Part shown: piece after piece, positions 46,685 to 53,746 of the stretch
Position numbering within the stretch: the stretch's first letter is position 1
Layout: each line of letters starts with the position of its first letter
Assembly (NCBI GenBank): GCA_002721815.1
Contig: PBLQ01000001.1
Span: 96,379 to 160,378 of the forward strand
DNA: 64,000 nt
Source: Myxococcales bacterium
Lineage (GTDB): Bacteria > Myxococcota > UBA727 > GCA-2721815
Direction of reading: 5' to 3'
The notes under the pieces: model-generated
Databases searched by the model: none
What the model was told of the DNA's origin: nothing
What the model saw: only the letters and a program-made list of their open reading frames with translations
Position numbers and translations under genes: made by a program

Positions 46685-48159
46685 CCATCCCATCTGTCCG
46701 AATCAAAGAATTTAACGACCGACCCGTGAATGCAAAAGGCGACTATCTTTTGTACTGGATGGTCTCCAACCGGCGCGCCCACTATAACTATGCGCTTGAA
46801 TATGCCGTCGAGGAAGCCATCAAGCGGGGTGTTCCTTTGTTGATCTTCGAAGGCCTTAGAACATCTTATCCATGGTCCTCAAAAAGATGTCATCAGTTTG
46901 TTTTGGAGGGGATGCTCGAACAGCAGAAGATTTTCCAAAAACACAAGGTGCAATACATTCCCTACGTGGAACCCCAAGAAAATGCAGGCAAAGGCCTGAT
47001 GAAGGCACTGGCCGAAAAAGCCATGATGGTGGTCACAGATATCTATCCCGCCTACTTTATCCCTAAAATGCAGAAAGCCTTTTCCTCCAAGAGCCCCTGT
47101 CGTGTAATTGGTGTCGATAGCAATGGTCTCATGCCAATTTATGCGCCCGACCGTACTTTTGCCCGTGCGTATGACTACCGACGTTTTGTCCAAAAAAATG
47201 TGGAGCGTTTTTTCCTCGATCGCCCGAAAAAGCAACCGTATAAAAGTGCCAAGCTCATCCGAGAACCAATTGAGCTAACATCCATCTACGAACGATGGAC
47301 AATCCCTCCGCTCCCCGGCAAAGATCAAATGGATGGCTTTCTCAATAACATTAATTATTTGCACGAGATTCCATCGGGCGCCTATGTGGGCGGGCGACAA
47401 GCAGCCCTTTACAAACTCCGAAGCTTTTTGACCGAGCATCTGCCATATTACCACGAAAAGCGAAACGATGCGGAGCAGGAAGGCACCAGTTTTCTTTCGC
47501 CTTATCTACACTTCGGTCACATCAGTCCTCATGAAATCTTTTGGGACATCATCGAAGAAAAAGGATGGAGTCCGCACCAACTTTCGGCCAAAAGAGGGGG
47601 CCAGCGAGAGGGCTTTTGGGGGCTCGATCCGGGCACTGAAGCGTTCCTGGATCAGCTGCTGGTATGGCGAGAATTAGGGTTTAATACCTGCGCGAACAAC
47701 CCTGAGTTCGATTCATTTTCTTCGCTACCGCAATGGGCTCAGCAAACCCTCCTCGATCACAGCAGCGATGAAAAAGAATATGTGTATGAACTTGAAGAAT
47801 TTGAACACTCTAAAACCCATGATGAGATTTGGAATGCCGCCCAACGGCAACTCAAACAAGAGGGCCGCATGCACAACTATCTTCGCATGCTTTGGGGTAA
47901 GAAAATCTTAGAATGGTCGGCCAGCCCCATGGACGCGCTGCATGTGATGATTGAACTGAACAACAAGTATGCCTTGGACGGTCGTGATCCCAACTCGTAC
48001 AGTGGTATCTTTTGGGTGTTGGGGCGTTACGATCGCGCCTGGGGACCGGAGCGGCCTATCTTTGGTAAGATCCGCTATATGAGCAGCGACTCCACAAAAA
48101 GAAAATTGAAACTAAAAAACTATTTGGCCAAATATGGAGAGCAACCCAGTTTGATTTAG
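46681..48159 (+). CDS. phr: deoxyribodipyrimidine photolyase, class II
   Basis: 492 residues. It uses FAD and blue light to split cyclobutane pyrimidine dimers. The N-terminal half is the alpha/beta antenna domain (DYLLYWMVSNRRAHYNYALE). The FAD domain shows the class II pattern: LLVWRELGFNTC, RMHNYLRMLWGKKILEWS, NKYALDGRDPNSYSGIFWVL and RAWGPERPIFGKIRYMSSDS. A class I or DASH enzyme would lack the 'W.KKILEW' and 'DGRDPNSY.GI' blocks. It is translationally coupled to the SDR-START gene and controlled from the crtC-side promoter, so DNA repair and pigment genes probably respond to light together. Its stop overlaps that of ferredoxin by 4 nt. Confidence 0.95.
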   Translation: MTIPSVRIKEFNDRPVNAKGDYLLYWMVSNRRAHYNYALEYAVEEAIKRGVPLLIFEGLRTSYPWSSKRCHQFVLEGMLEQQKIFQKHKVQYIPYVEPQENAGKGLMKALAEKAMMVVTDIYPAYFIPKMQKAFSSKSPCRVIGVDSNGLMPIYAPDRTFARAYDYRRFVQKNVERFFLDRPKKQPYKSAKLIREPIELTSIYERWTIPPLPGKDQMDGFLNNINYLHEIPSGAYVGGRQAALYKLRSFLTEHLPYYHEKRNDAEQEGTSFLSPYLHFGHISPHEIFWDIIEEKGWSPHQLSAKRGGQREGFWGLDPGTEAFLDQLLVWRELGFNTCANNPEFDSFSSLPQWAQQTLLDHSSDEKEYVYELEEFEHSKTHDEIWNAAQRQLKQEGRMHNYLRMLWGKKILEWSASPMDALHVMIELNNKYALDGRDPNSYSGIFWVLGRYDRAWGPERPIFGKIRYMSSDSTKRKLKLKNYLAKYGEQPSLI

Positions 48160-48485
48160 TGCTCAGCCTCTTTGACCAAATTTCGGTTATGAGCAGGGAT
48201 TTCAACGTCGAGATCACCGTTGAGTTCGATCTGACACGCCAAACGCGATGTGGTGGAAAGCATGGGTGCCAAATCTAACATGTCTTCCTCTTCTTCGCTG
48301 GCCTCATCAAGCTGATTGAATCCTTTTTTCACGATCACGTGACACGTGGAGCATGCACATACACCACCACAGGCATGATCGATTTCGATCCCGTTTCGAT
48401 GGGCCACATCTAAAAGTGTATCGCCGGGCTTGCCCTCACAGACCTGCCCTCTTGGTAAAAAAGTAATCTTGTATAACTGACTCAT
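48156..48485 (-). CDS. fdx: ISC-type [2Fe-2S] ferredoxin
   Basis: 109 residues, an adrenodoxin-like ferredoxin. Cluster ligands are visible as [18 protein letters not shown] (three Cys in the C-x5-C-x2-C loop) and a fourth Cys in [13 protein letters not shown]. It donates electrons for cluster assembly on IscU. Its ATG overlaps the hscA stop by 4 nt, the usual end of an isc operon. Confidence 0.96.
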
Positions 48486-50362
48486 GATGATGCCTCGGGT
48501 GAAACAACGTCATTCACGTTTTTATCTTTAAGCACTTCAGCCATACTGGCATCCATACGCCGGCCCGCAAAATCGACGGTGATTTTATCCAAATTTTCTT
48601 TCGCCTGCGAGATGAGTTGACGAACATTCTGACTTAGAGCGTCTTGTAAATTACCCAAAGCATCCTCAATGGCTTCTTTTTCTTCTGTGTTCAACAAACC
48701 GGGATGCTCGGTGATGGCTTTATTCACCACTGACATTAACCGTTCGGCCTCAACCTTGGTATCAATAAGCAAACGCTCTTCCACATCGGCTTCAGCATTA
48801 TCAATGCTCGCCATGAGCATGTTTTCGACTTCTTCGTCGGTCAGCCCGTAACTTGGCTTGATCTCCACACTCTGAGCAAGACCCGTACTCTCTTCGCTCG
48901 CAGTCACTGTTAACAGGCCATCAGCATCCAAGGTAAACTCGACCGCCACCCGCGCCAGGCCTGCTGCCATAGGGGGGATACCGGTAAGCTTGAAACGCGC
49001 CAGACTCTTCACATGAGCGACCGTTTCACGCTCGCCTTGGACCACATGGATGTCCATGGCATTTTGGTTGTCAATATAAGTGGTAAAGGTATGCGTTGCC
49101 TTGCAAGGAATGGTGCTGTTTCGGGGGATCAACTTGTCCACCACACCACCCATGGTTTCAATGCCGAGAGACAGAGGTGTTACATCCAACAACAATAAGT
49201 CTTGGTCGCCGCCGGACAACAGATCGGCTTGCAGGGAAGCGCCTAAGGCCACCACTTCGTCAGGGTGCGCGTCCAATAAAGGTTCTTGCCCAAAAATTTC
49301 TTTCGCCAGGTGTCGCACCTGGGGCACACGCGTTGAGCCGCCCACCAAAATAACACCGTCTAATTGGTCCGCCGTCAAACCTGCATCGTCCAAAGCTTTA
49401 AGGCAGGGTGGTTGTAAACGTTTTAAAATAGGCTGAACCATCGCCTCAAAAATATCACGCTGGAGCACCCATTGATGCTTCTTGCCATTGAGCGGTACTT
49501 CAATCTCTGCTTGGGAGTGGAGGGTTAACTCTTCTTTGAGCCTTCTCGCAGCCAAAGTCATTTGGTTACGATCTGCTTCACTCAAAGCATTGGCACTCAT
49601 GTGCTTCTCCTCGAGCATCCATCGGACAATGGCTTCATCAAAATCATCTCCACCCAAGGCGGTATCGCCACAGGTGGCTTTCACACGAAAAAGACCGCGG
49701 TCAAAATCCAAAACCGATACGTCGAATGTACCACCACCGAGGTCAAATACCACATAAGTGCCCTTGCCTCGCCCTTCGGCCTCTTTATCGAGCCCATAGG
49801 CTACAGCCGCGGCGGTGGGTTCAGCCAACAAACGCATCACTTCTAAGCCGGCCAGACGGCCCGCATCTCGGGTGGCTTGTCTTTGGGTTTCATCGAAGTA
49901 TGCAGGAACGGTGATCACCGCATGCTTAACTTCTTCGCCGAAATGCTTTTCAGCATGTTCTTTCAAGTGTTTTAAAATCGCGGCCGCCACTTCAACGGCT
50001 GACACAACATCGTTGCCACCTTGCCCGTCTGAAATTCTGAATTGGGCCAGCCTCGAATCCATGTTGATCAACTGCGCTTCTCGGTGGCTTTGGGCTAAGA
50101 TTTTCTGGGCGCTATCAAAACCTTTACCGATCACGCGCTTCGTTGACAGTAACAGCGTGCCAGTTTCAATTTTCGCCTGGGCCAAGGCCGCCCGACCAAC
50201 GGAATACGGGGCGCCCTCAACTGCTTCATACCGTTCGGGTACAAAGAGGGCAGAGGGAATCCGACCATCTGCGTTGTCTTTCAGAATTTGGGCCGTCCCT
50301 TCGTTCACTGATGCCACCAGCGAATAGGTCGTTCCCAAATCAATTCCGATGCTCTTTGTCAT
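48482..50362 (-). CDS. hscA: HscA, Hsp70-type chaperone for Fe-S assembly
   Basis: 626 residues from the ATG at 50362. The nucleotide-binding domain has [35 protein letters not shown] and [15 protein letters not shown]. The substrate-binding domain is complete, with [16 protein letters not shown] in the linker region. Its setting between hscB and fdx, and the presence of the LPPVK recognition motif in IscU, identify it as HscA rather than DnaK; a separate dnaK is at 59863. It promotes transfer of clusters from IscU. The gene starts 58 bp after hscB. Confidence 0.95.
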
Positions 50363-50420
50363 GCCTTTCAATCTCCTCAACGTCAGCTATCACACAAGAG
50401 CCAAAGCACAATGGGCAGTC

Positions 50421-51014
50421 TTATACCTCGGGGGCTTGACCTTTCAGCGCATCCAGCACCCTTTGAAAATAACGCAACCGGGTCAATGCACCGGCAGCCT
50501 CTTCAGGGGTACCGGTACCCGCATCGAGGACCTCTCCCAAAATCTCCCGATCTTTGGCAAAACGGCCTTCGAAATCGGTTTGCAGGCTGACTTTATTCGC
50601 TCCAGCATCATGGGCAGATTCTTGCGCCTCCATCATGTCCATTAAAAATTCCTCTGGAGGGAAAATTTCGGTGGGCCAACCCTTTTGTTCAATGAGGAAG
50701 GCGCCTCGCGAGATGTCATTGGAAAGTAGTTTGTAGGCGTCATTGGTAGCGGCCATCTGTTCCACCGCATACCTGCGTTCTGCCGCATCCCGCATGGCAT
50801 ATCGGTCGGGGTGACAACGGCGAGATCGCTTGAGCCAGCGTGTTTCGAGCTCTTCGGCATCAAGATTAAATGAGGGGTTGTCGTATCCGAACACCACATA
50901 GGGGCTGATATTGGGAGCGACTTTTTGAACTTTGCCGCACGCTGAGCAGACCACAGGCTGGGAACCCATCTCCCACTCTTTTTCACAGGACCAGCACAAC
51001 ACTTTTGGGGGCAT
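50421..51014 (-). CDS. hscB: HscB co-chaperone with N-terminal zinc-ribbon-like motif
   Basis: About 197 residues from the ATG at 51014 (a GTG at 51023 is the alternative). The J domain has the HPD motif in RRCHPDRYAMRDAA. The C-terminal three-helix domain that binds IscU follows. Before the J domain there is a tetracysteine segment, CWSCEKEWEMGSQPVVCSAC, absent from E. coli HscB but closely like the zinc-binding N-terminus of human HSC20 ('CWNC ... FCPQC'). It stimulates HscA. It follows iscA by a few bases within the isc operon. Confidence 0.94.
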   Translation of the reverse strand: MPPKVLCWSCEKEWEMGSQPVVCSACGKVQKVAPNISPYVVFGYDNPSFNLDAEELETRWLKRSRRCHPDRYAMRDAAERRYAVEQMAATNDAYKLLSNDISRGAFLIEQKGWPTEIFPPEEFLMDMMEAQESAHDAGANKVSLQTDFEGRFAKDREILGEVLDAGTGTPEEAAGALTRLRYFQRVLDALKGQAPEV

Positions 51015-51026
51015 GGCATTCACGCT

Positions 51027-51434
51027 CTAAAGGGAGAAAGACTCGCCGCAAGAACAACTTTTGACTTCACGTGGGTTCTTCACCGTAAACCCACTGCGCA
51101 TAAGCGATTCGGACCAATCCAATACGGAGCCGCCCACGTAGAGCAATGATTTGGGGTCTACACAGATTTTTGCGTTGTAGGCTTCGAACAAGTGATCTTT
51201 TTCGTCGGGGCTCTGTTGGAAAGAAAAATTATAGGTTAGGCCGGAACAACCACCACCCATTATGCCCACACGCAAAAACCAGCCGGGCTTGCCCTCTCGT
51301 TCGGCGAGCGCAATGGCTTTCTCGGCAGCGGCTTCAGTGATGGCCAGCCTGTTCTTAGGAACGTCCACGGGCGTCGGAGCTTGAGGCTTCGGCGACTCTT
51401 TTTTCTTCGACGTTCCAATACCCATCAAACCCAT
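51027..51434 (-). CDS. iscA: A-type Fe-S carrier IscA
   Basis: 135 residues, with GGAG six bases before the ATG. The three conserved Cys are in MGGGCSGLTYNF and KSCSCGESFSL. An extra N-terminal segment of about 25 residues rich in Lys and Pro (SKKKESPKPQAPTPVDVPK) is not part of the usual IscA fold. It carries or stores [2Fe-2S]/[4Fe-4S] clusters for transfer. It lies 3 bp after iscU. Confidence 0.95.
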   Translation of the reverse strand: MGLMGIGTSKKKESPKPQAPTPVDVPKNRLAITEAAAEKAIALAEREGKPGWFLRVGIMGGGCSGLTYNFSFQQSPDEKDHLFEAYNAKICVDPKSLLYVGGSVLDWSESLMRSGFTVKNPREVKSCSCGESFSL

Positions 51435-51437
51435 GGT

Positions 51438-51830
51438 TTACTCCGTTTTTCCTTCTTGCTTGTCACGGAAGTCTTGGATTGCCGCCTTGATGGCATCTTC
51501 TGCCAATACGGAGCAATGAATCTTGACCGGTGGCAAGGACAGTTCTTCAGCGATATCGCCATTGCTGATGGTCATGGCCTCATCGACGGACTTGCCCTTG
51601 ACCCATTCGGTCACCAAAGAGGAAGAGGCAATGGCCGAACCACAACCAAATGTTTTGAACTTGGCATCTTCGATCACGCCTTCATCGTCAATTTTCAATT
51701 GCAGTTTCATGACGTCGCCGCAGGCTGGCGCTCCCACCAGTCCAGTTCCAACGTTTGGGTCTGCTTTGTCCATGGACCCCACGTTTCGTGGGTTTTCATA
51801 ATGATCGATCACTTCTTTTGAGTAAGCCAT
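51438..51830 (-). CDS. iscU: Fe-S scaffold IscU
   Basis: 130 residues, nearly the same length and numbering as E. coli IscU. Ligands Cys37 (GAPACGDVMK), Cys63 (KTFGCGSAIAS) and Cys106 (KIHCSVLAEDA) are all present, as is the neighbouring Asp39. The LPPVK motif recognised by HscA is at 99-103. Clusters are built on this scaffold with sulfur from IscS. It follows iscS by 21 bp. Confidence 0.97.
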   Translation of the reverse strand: MAYSKEVIDHYENPRNVGSMDKADPNVGTGLVGAPACGDVMKLQLKIDDEGVIEDAKFKTFGCGSAIASSSLVTEWVKGKSVDEAMTISNGDIAEELSLPPVKIHCSVLAEDAIKAAIQDFRDKQEGKTE

Positions 51831-51851: not shown

Positions 51852-53069
51852 TTAATGCCCAGTCCATTGGACTGTATTTAAATCTACACCTTCTTGAACG
51901 AGTTTCCACAGTGGCGACATGTCGCGGAGACGGGTCACTGCATCAATGACCAAATTCGCCACATAATCCACTTCTTCTTCGGTGGAAAAACGACCCAAAC
52001 CAAATCGAATGGATGAGTGTGCCAGCTCGTCGCCCACACCCAAAGCACGCAAGACGTATGACGGTTCTAGTGAGGCTGATGTACAAGCCGAGCCAGATGA
52101 AACCGCCACATCTTTGTTGATGGCCATCAATAAACTTTCACCCTCCACATAGGCGAAAGAGATATTGAGATTGCCCGATACCCGGTGCTCTTGTGAGCCG
52201 TTCAAATAAACTTCAGGCAACGCATCAGTAATCTTTTTATGCAAACGGTCTCGGAGTGCGGCCACTCGCTTGTCTTCTTCGTGCATCTCAGCTTCGGCCA
52301 AAGCACAGGCTTTACCAAAACCCACAATGCCCGGAACATTGAGCGTACCGGAGCGAAAGCCACGTTCGTGGCCACCACCGTGAATGATCGGCGCCAGTCG
52401 AACCCGTGGTTTACGTCGGACGTATAAGGCACCTACACCTTTGGGCCCATAAAGTTTGTGTCCACTGATGGCAACCAAGTCGACATTGAGTTCATTCACA
52501 TCGAAAGGCAGTCGCCCTATACTTTGTACTGCGTCGCAATGGAAAAATACTTTTCGCTCGCGGGTCAGAGCACCGATTTCTTTAATGGGGTTGATCACGC
52601 CCAGTTCATTGTTCACGTGCATCAAGGACACCAAAATGGTGTCATCTCGCATGGCGGCTTCCACTTGGTCCACCGAAATCAAACCGTCACGACCAGGTGT
52701 AAGGTAAGTGACTTCGAAGCCATCAACCTCTAATGCGCGACAAGCGTCGATAACGGCCTTGTGCTCAATCTTCGAAGTAATGATGTGCTTACCACGCTCT
52801 TGGTAAAAGTGAGCAATGCCCTTGATGGCCAAGTTGTCCGATTCAGTGGCACCAGAGGTCCAGATGATTTCTTTGGGGTGTGCACCCAACAAGGAGGCGA
52901 CCTCTTCGCGCGCTTTCTCAACTGCATCTTCGGCCGCCCACCCGAATGAATGGTTGCGACTTGCAGAATTGCCAAACGTATTGGTCAGGTAAGGCATCAT
53001 GGCTTCGAGCACCCGCGGATCTAATGGGGTGGTGGCATGGTTATCAAAATAAATGGGGGTTTGGACCAT
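51852..53069 (-). CDS. iscS: cysteine desulfurase IscS
   Basis: 405 residues. This PLP enzyme takes sulfur from cysteine and passes it to IscU. The N-terminal [19 protein letters not shown], the PLP lysine in [17 protein letters not shown] and the persulfide Cys loop [17 protein letters not shown] match group I enzymes. The C-terminal [19 protein letters not shown] is also typical. It starts 14 bp after the MerR-family regulator, in the position normally held after iscR. Confidence 0.97.
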
Positions 53070-53083
53070 GGCTAAAATAACTC

Positions 53084-53629
53084 CTAAGAATCTGACCGTT
53101 GCCAGAGGTTATTCAGTAATGAAGGAAACTCTTCAGAGCGGCCGCAACAAGAACACACCTCAGTGGTGTTAGAGGTATTGGCCACATGACTACAAGACGT
53201 ACAACCGGACAAATATTCCAAGGTTTCTTGAAGTTCTGATTGAAGCTGCCCGAGGCGGGTCATTTGTGCGTTAAGGACGGTTAAACGTTGTTCAAATTCG
53301 GCGCGAAGTGTTTCCATGACTTCTTTGGGAACCCCGGGACTTTGGCTGGTGGCCAACAGATCCTGAATTTGAGGTAAGGTGAATCCCACATCTTGGAGCT
53401 TCGAAATCCAAAAAACACGCTCAGCATTGGCTTCGTGGTAAAGACGAAAACCACCCGCGGTACGCTCGTGGGGGACCAGCAAACCCATCTCTTCATACAA
53501 TCGCAAAGCGCGTTTGGTCTTGCCCGTTTTTTCTGCAAGATCCCCAATCCGTAAAGGCGCAGAATCACGGGCCGTGGGCTCGCTTAACTGTATTAAAACA
53601 TTATGTTTTTCAGTAACTTGTTTATCCAT
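53084..53629 (-). CDS. MerR-family regulator with C-terminal Cys cluster, first gene of the isc operon
   Basis: 181 residues from the ATG at 53629, with GGAG seven bases upstream. The N-terminal MerR winged helix (about 26-95) contains [20 protein letters not shown] and [17 protein letters not shown] long dimerisation helix (about 105-140) follows. The tail has Cys143-x2-Cys146-x12-Cys159-x-Cys161-Cys162 (SGCTSCSH and EVCSCCGR), which could bind an Fe-S cluster or a metal, as in SoxR or CueR relatives. It occupies the usual place of iscR, which is absent. A near-palindrome in a 20-bp promoter spacer directly upstream is the expected MerR operator. Autoregulation and cluster sensing are inferences. 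Confidence 0.85.
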
Positions 53630-53644
53630 TGACGCTCTCCCCTG

Positions 53645-53676
53645 TCTAAACTTAACGTTTACGTAAGGGTAAGCAA
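53645..53676 (-). promoter_or_regulatory. isc operon promoter with MerR-type long spacer and dyad
   Basis: On the minus strand TTGCTT (53676-53671) and TTTAGA (53650-53645) are 20 bp apart, the long spacing MerR activators require. The near-palindrome CTTACGTAAACGTTAAG (53667-53651) fills the spacer. The leader would be only about 9 nt, so the exact start of transcription is uncertain. Confidence 0.5.
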
Positions 53677-53746
53677 TGAAAACACGAGCCAGTGAGATTG
53701 TCAACCGGTTTCAGAACGATTATTCTATTTGTTTTTAAGCACTTAG

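Follow-up and report, generated by a model that had tools for sequence, protein, structure and literature searches.

The isc operon and its MerR-family first gene

The window, a stretch of 64,000 nucleotides from a Myxococcales bacterium, carries on its minus strand a MerR-family gene lying 14 bp ahead of iscS, followed by iscU, iscA, hscB, hscA and fdx, with atpD and atpC upstream of the MerR gene on the same strand. The order regulator-iscS-iscU-iscA-hscB-hscA-fdx read in the initial annotation is borne out gene by gene by matches to family models:

53084..53629, minus strand: gene for a MerR-family regulator of 181 aa, heading the isc operon (Pfam, ATG with ribosome-binding site, AlphaFold)
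53348..53554, minus strand: helix-turn-helix and wing, residues 26–94 (Pfam residues 27–93; AlphaFold pLDDT 88–98)
53198..53326, minus strand: long dimerisation helix, residues 102–144, with the first conserved cysteine at its end (AlphaFold secondary structure)
53144..53203, minus strand: four-cysteine motif C143-x2-C146-x12-C159-x2-C162, the presumed sensor site (invariant in the 66-sequence alignment)
51852..53069, minus strand: iscS, cysteine desulfurase (TIGR02006, 681 bits, above cut-off)
51438..51830, minus strand: iscU, scaffold (TIGR01999, 228 bits, above cut-off)
51027..51434, minus strand: iscA-type A-type carrier (TIGR00049, 108.7 bits, above cut-off; ErpA, SufA and IscA models below theirs)
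50421..51023, minus strand: hscB, co-chaperone with an N-terminal CxxC...CxxC domain (Pfam HSCB_C)
48482..50380, minus strand: hscA, chaperone (TIGR01991, 717 bits, above cut-off)
48156..48485, minus strand: fdx, ISC-type [2Fe-2S] ferredoxin (TIGR02007, 125 bits, below the cut-off of 132; Pfam Fer2)

The protein encoded at 53084..53629 belongs to the MerR family, as the initial annotation had it: Pfam MerR_1 (54.7 bits), MerR-DNA-bind (34.4 bits) and MerR all match above their cut-offs, and only MerR models match, not Rrf2 (PF02082 / TIGR02010). The AlphaFold model (mean pLDDT 84) has the N-terminal MerR helix-turn-helix and wing followed by the long helix up to C143, with low confidence for the cysteine loop. 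Foldseek and profile searches return MerR proteins, namely metal sensors, NmlR, MtaN and SoxR. The nearest by sequence and fold are ZntR, CueR, CadR and MerR, from which the window protein differs in ligand residues, promoter geometry and target genes. Its scores against the equivalog models of these four (55–70 bits) are well below the cut-offs of 143–168, and it lies far under every equivalog cut-off shown; the four models match all 66 members of the alignment, with the cut-off comparison shown for the window protein alone. The gene starts at an ATG at 53629 with a good ribosome site, GGGGAGAG, just 5′ of it, while an alternative longer ORF from a TTG at 53704 would span the promoter and the dyad described below.

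The source genome is 4.6 Mb in size and 98% complete. An iscR elsewhere in it had been named in the initial annotation as grounds for dropping the idea of a MerR-type regulator, and a search across the 4.6 Mb found no Rrf2/IscR-type gene (PF02082). SufB/D were also sought in the genome and are absent, therefore ISC is its sole recognised Fe-S assembly system. A check for plasmid carriage gave no match.

HscB (50421-51023) has an N-terminal CxxC...CxxC domain resembling that of human mitochondrial HSC20. Among solved structures the closest is human mitochondrial HscB (3bvo, E 2e-17), in an alignment that covers the cysteines, with E. coli HscB behind (5e-8); comparable domains were found in 11 of 55 related loci checked.

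Conservation of gene position and of the four cysteines

Relatives were sought with the MerR sequence alone, taking one genome per species; a single-sequence query on genome contigs recovered none, while an alignment query gave 80 loci, which are the closest relatives. They are mostly from Myxococcota (among them Nannocystis, Plesiocystis, Enhygromyxa, Polyangium, Labilithrix, Sandaracinus and Kofleriaceae), with four from Eisenbacteria and one from an Oligoflexia bin. Three loci stop at a contig edge, and in 76 of the 77 with readable downstream sequence no more than 116 bp separate the MerR gene from a following iscS (69) or from iscA-sufB or sufB (7), so that the occurrence of this MerR type ahead of iscS elsewhere, which the initial annotation had proposed to look for, is amply documented. 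A first survey of relatives had already placed the gene directly ahead of iscS in ten genomes, the source included, and ahead of sufB in two more. The single readable locus with neither iscS nor sufB downstream, L219, keeps the MerR gene and the dyad; at L177 there is a lone desulfurase, farther off, and at L213 the contig stops after iscA. The MerR-isc order is thus repeated across Myxococcota and Eisenbacteria.

In most lineages the gene accompanies ISC, and in at least two or three separate ones it goes with SUF; the common element of these operons is Fe-S assembly. The tree groups the isc/suf-linked proteins apart from the ten further Myxococcota MerR proteins included (96/93). It implies no fewer than two switches between isc and suf, with two long suf-linked branches weakly placed. 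Rrf2 proteins are present in some MerR-bearing relatives. None of 55 genomes passes the cut-off of the IscR equivalog model, which one genome in the control set passed, and in Myxococcaceae-like and other relatives lacking the MerR gene no IscR was seen upstream of iscS. The earlier suggestion that a MerR-type regulator, and not IscR, is dedicated to Fe-S assembly here is well supported by this result together with the recurrent gene order and the absence of Rrf2 from the source genome. In the reduced genome G014 (L065:505-3136), an iscS-like gene comes straight after atpD-atpC with no MerR gene between them, and the atp-isc synteny is therefore broader than the MerR gene in that order.

The 66 aligned sequences have 13 invariant columns, which include C143, C146, C159 and C162. 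The tail had been read as C-x2-C-x12-C-x-C-C, and all five residues are as described, but C161 is particular to the window sequence and lies outside the conserved set. The pattern CxxC-x7-13-CxxC is present in 78 of 79 complete tails, most often with a spacing of x8 (56/78), which in the window is x12. One relative (G022/L221) is without the four cysteines and without the dyad too. In MerR-family sensors the ligand site is where the dimerisation helix ends, and SoxR, the known Fe-S sensor of the family, likewise has four C-terminal cysteines past this helix on a MerR fold. SoxR is an activator at a long-spacer promoter, responding to redox stress and not to assembly, and its cluster motif, C-x2-C-x-C-x5-C, is not found in the window protein, which has the different spacing given above and scores 37.6 bits on the SoxR equivalog model against a cut-off of 116.9.

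What do these cysteines bind? Judging from the position of the gene, the cysteines and precedent, we somewhat favour an Fe-S cluster as the ligand; Fe-S sensing appears the likeliest reading, with zinc or thiol redox possible. The main competitor is a dedicated isc repressor whose four cysteines hold zinc, either structurally or as a thiol redox switch, and which would sense oxidants or metal and not cluster supply. CxxC-x8-CxxC is also a common zinc site, and paired CxxC knuckles 7–13 residues apart are typical of zinc sites in general. Among curated models those of ZntR, CueR and CadR, all metal sensors, come nearest, though their cut-offs are missed by a wide margin, and a histidine that might serve as an additional ligand lies within three residues of the last cysteine in 55 of 81 tails. 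However, this histidine is missing from the window tail, and the operons that the relatives have in common are ISC and SUF, not metal efflux, so that we regard zinc as rather unlikely. Counterpoints to the Fe-S reading are the different cysteine spacing of SoxR and the related CxxC/CxxC tails of Myxococcota MerR paralogues away from isc. Such tails are found in other MerR proteins of the phylum at L017, L018 and L029, where no isc genes were recognised near L017 and L029 and the flanks of L018 are short. In G025 (L034:4492-4941) there is another MerR gene, a distant one that also has a CxxC/CxxC tail, right behind fdx at the far end of isc.

The predicted operator dyad and promoter

Upstream of the MerR gene we place the following elements:

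53653..53672, no strand assigned: predicted operator dyad TTACCCTTACGTAAACGTTA (sole 0-mismatch match in the genome; conserved ahead of orthologues)
53676..53681, minus strand: -10 element TTTCAT, weak, with a 17-bp spacer (prediction only)
53699..53704, minus strand: -35 element TTGACA (read from the sequence; best promoter by script; placement relative to the dyad conserved)

The 20-bp dyad pattern TNACNNTNACGTNANNGTNA was drawn by eye from upstream regions and, with up to two mismatches, is present upstream in 71 of 81 loci, as compared with 3 of 1363 control windows. Since the pattern derives from some of the same sequences, the weight rests on its uniqueness and on independent loci: it is kept in 63 of 72 loci once the nine loci with genomes from the first reading are excluded, and at 0 mismatches it occurs exactly once in each of nine genomes (G000, G002, G003, G006, G008, G025, G027, G034 and G040), always at this promoter, the window copy being the only such match across the 4.6-Mb genome. 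The near-palindrome noticed earlier at 53651-53667 is therefore real and beyond chance, but its limits have to be moved, as the conserved unit is 53653-53672. When a wider regulon was sought in the source genome, the dyad with up to two mismatches was found 141 times and a reversed control pattern 200 times; the dyad being no commoner than the control, there is no evidence for such a regulon there. In G006 (L033 near 6118) the extended dyad recurs with one mismatch just ahead of an ORF resembling a DEAD-box RNA helicase, which may be a second target. The stretch 53647-53672 can also be written as hexamer steps, TTACCC TTACGT AAACGT TAAGTT, which make up two dyads that overlap with a 6-bp offset, as they do in G025, and multimer binding at this hexamer-stepped operator is possible.

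The sequences themselves show the conserved operon position, the dyad, the cysteines and the absence of IscR, and from these the MerR protein almost certainly regulates the isc operon that it heads. Were it instead an operon passenger acting elsewhere, as L219 with its gene and dyad but no isc alongside might hint and as neighbourhood alone, which does not prove function, would allow, the link would hardly be kept in 76 of 77 informative relatives, even where ISC and SUF were exchanged, together with a promoter dyad that is unique in the genome; we give this option almost no credence.

The perfect TTGACA of the window is 32 bp upstream of the dyad, and the TTGACA-17-TTTCAT promoter puts the dyad at about -3 to +17 of the predicted start. 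In 46 of 67 loci (1.7 on average in the controls) a TTGACA-like -35 precedes the dyad by 26–49 bp; in only 4 of 67 is it in the activator position, with the dyad within a 19–20-bp spacer, which makes this a repressor layout. The initial annotation had read a promoter whose 20-bp spacer is filled by the dyad, as needed by a MerR activator that would untwist it and raise isc expression on signal. The pair TTGCTT-20-TTTAGA does flank the window dyad and MerR-family proteins are mostly activators; yet the pair is not conserved, and it was rejected on these grounds in favour of TTGACA-17-TTTCAT, which is better and conserved in arrangement. The claim thus falls, and we consider an activator of this kind improbable. 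With transcription starts being predicted, the layout favours repression by covering the start site, and we think it likely that the protein is mainly a repressor. Activation or dual control may occur as well, given that MerR proteins are mostly activators and that about 20 loci have a further dyad a short way upstream of the -35.

A proposed feedback loop for Fe-S assembly, and known regulators

In the mechanism that we propose, the MerR protein would be a transcriptional regulator dedicated to isc and encoded by the operon itself. Its dimer would bind the dyad just downstream of the promoter, across the transcription start, and thereby repress the operon that includes its gene. The signal would be bound by the four cysteines at the tip of the dimerisation helix, an Fe-S cluster being the likeliest candidate. 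With an ample supply of clusters the loaded protein would repress; under shortage, loss of the cluster would lift the repression and more ISC machinery would be made. The loop would be the feedback of IscR, RisR and SufR built on another protein superfamily. Taken as a whole, this picture of an autorepressor dedicated to Fe-S assembly, whose four cysteines probably serve to sense an Fe-S cluster, is the one that we regard as moderately probable.

IscR, the Rrf2 protein of E. coli isc, is similarly encoded by the first isc gene and is a self-encoded, cysteine-bearing DNA-binding protein acting near its own promoter, and the MerR gene shares with it both this place and an own conserved operator. 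In contrast to IscR, this type of regulator has a MerR and not an Rrf2 fold, four cysteines of the CxxC-x8-CxxC type and another operator, and the source genome is without an Rrf2 hit. RisR of Myxococcus xanthus, from the same phylum and also controlling isc, is an Rrf2 protein encoded with suf only, whose holo form represses both isc and suf, with the motif TtGAC-N7-GTCC (PMC9973013); it therefore provides a precedent for the repressor reading, and the paper has no mention of MerR. SufR of cyanobacteria and some Actinobacteria is a dedicated autorepressor of an Fe-S assembly operon; it too has its cysteines at the C-terminal end, and its operator is palindromic (PMC8593673). However, SufR is limited to suf and has a DeoR-type HTH and a C-x12-C-x13-C-x14-C [4Fe-4S] site, where the window protein has the MerR fold and other cysteine spacing. 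The same review names IscR and SufR as the primary regulators and leaves MerR unmentioned (PMC8593673). A search of the open-access literature gave no identifiable description of a MerR-type isc or suf regulator, in agreement with the earlier statement that none was known.

The observation extends beyond the single locus from which it started: many ISC operons across a large phylum are headed by an unrelated MerR protein with its own operator. There is about an even chance of a broader scenario, in which Fe-S assembly across much of Myxococcota and in Eisenbacteria is under standing feedback repression by an Fe-S-sensing protein of the MerR family whose cluster site, CxxC-x8-CxxC, is new, and which has moved between ISC and SUF operons and replaces IscR. 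If so, control of Fe-S homeostasis arose anew, with an activator superfamily turned to repression. This would be a convergent design of Fe-S feedback, an apparently undescribed self-adjusting control of an essential pathway, and perhaps a second Fe-S-binding type in the MerR family beside SoxR. The idea is directly testable in a culturable strain such as Nannocystis exedens.
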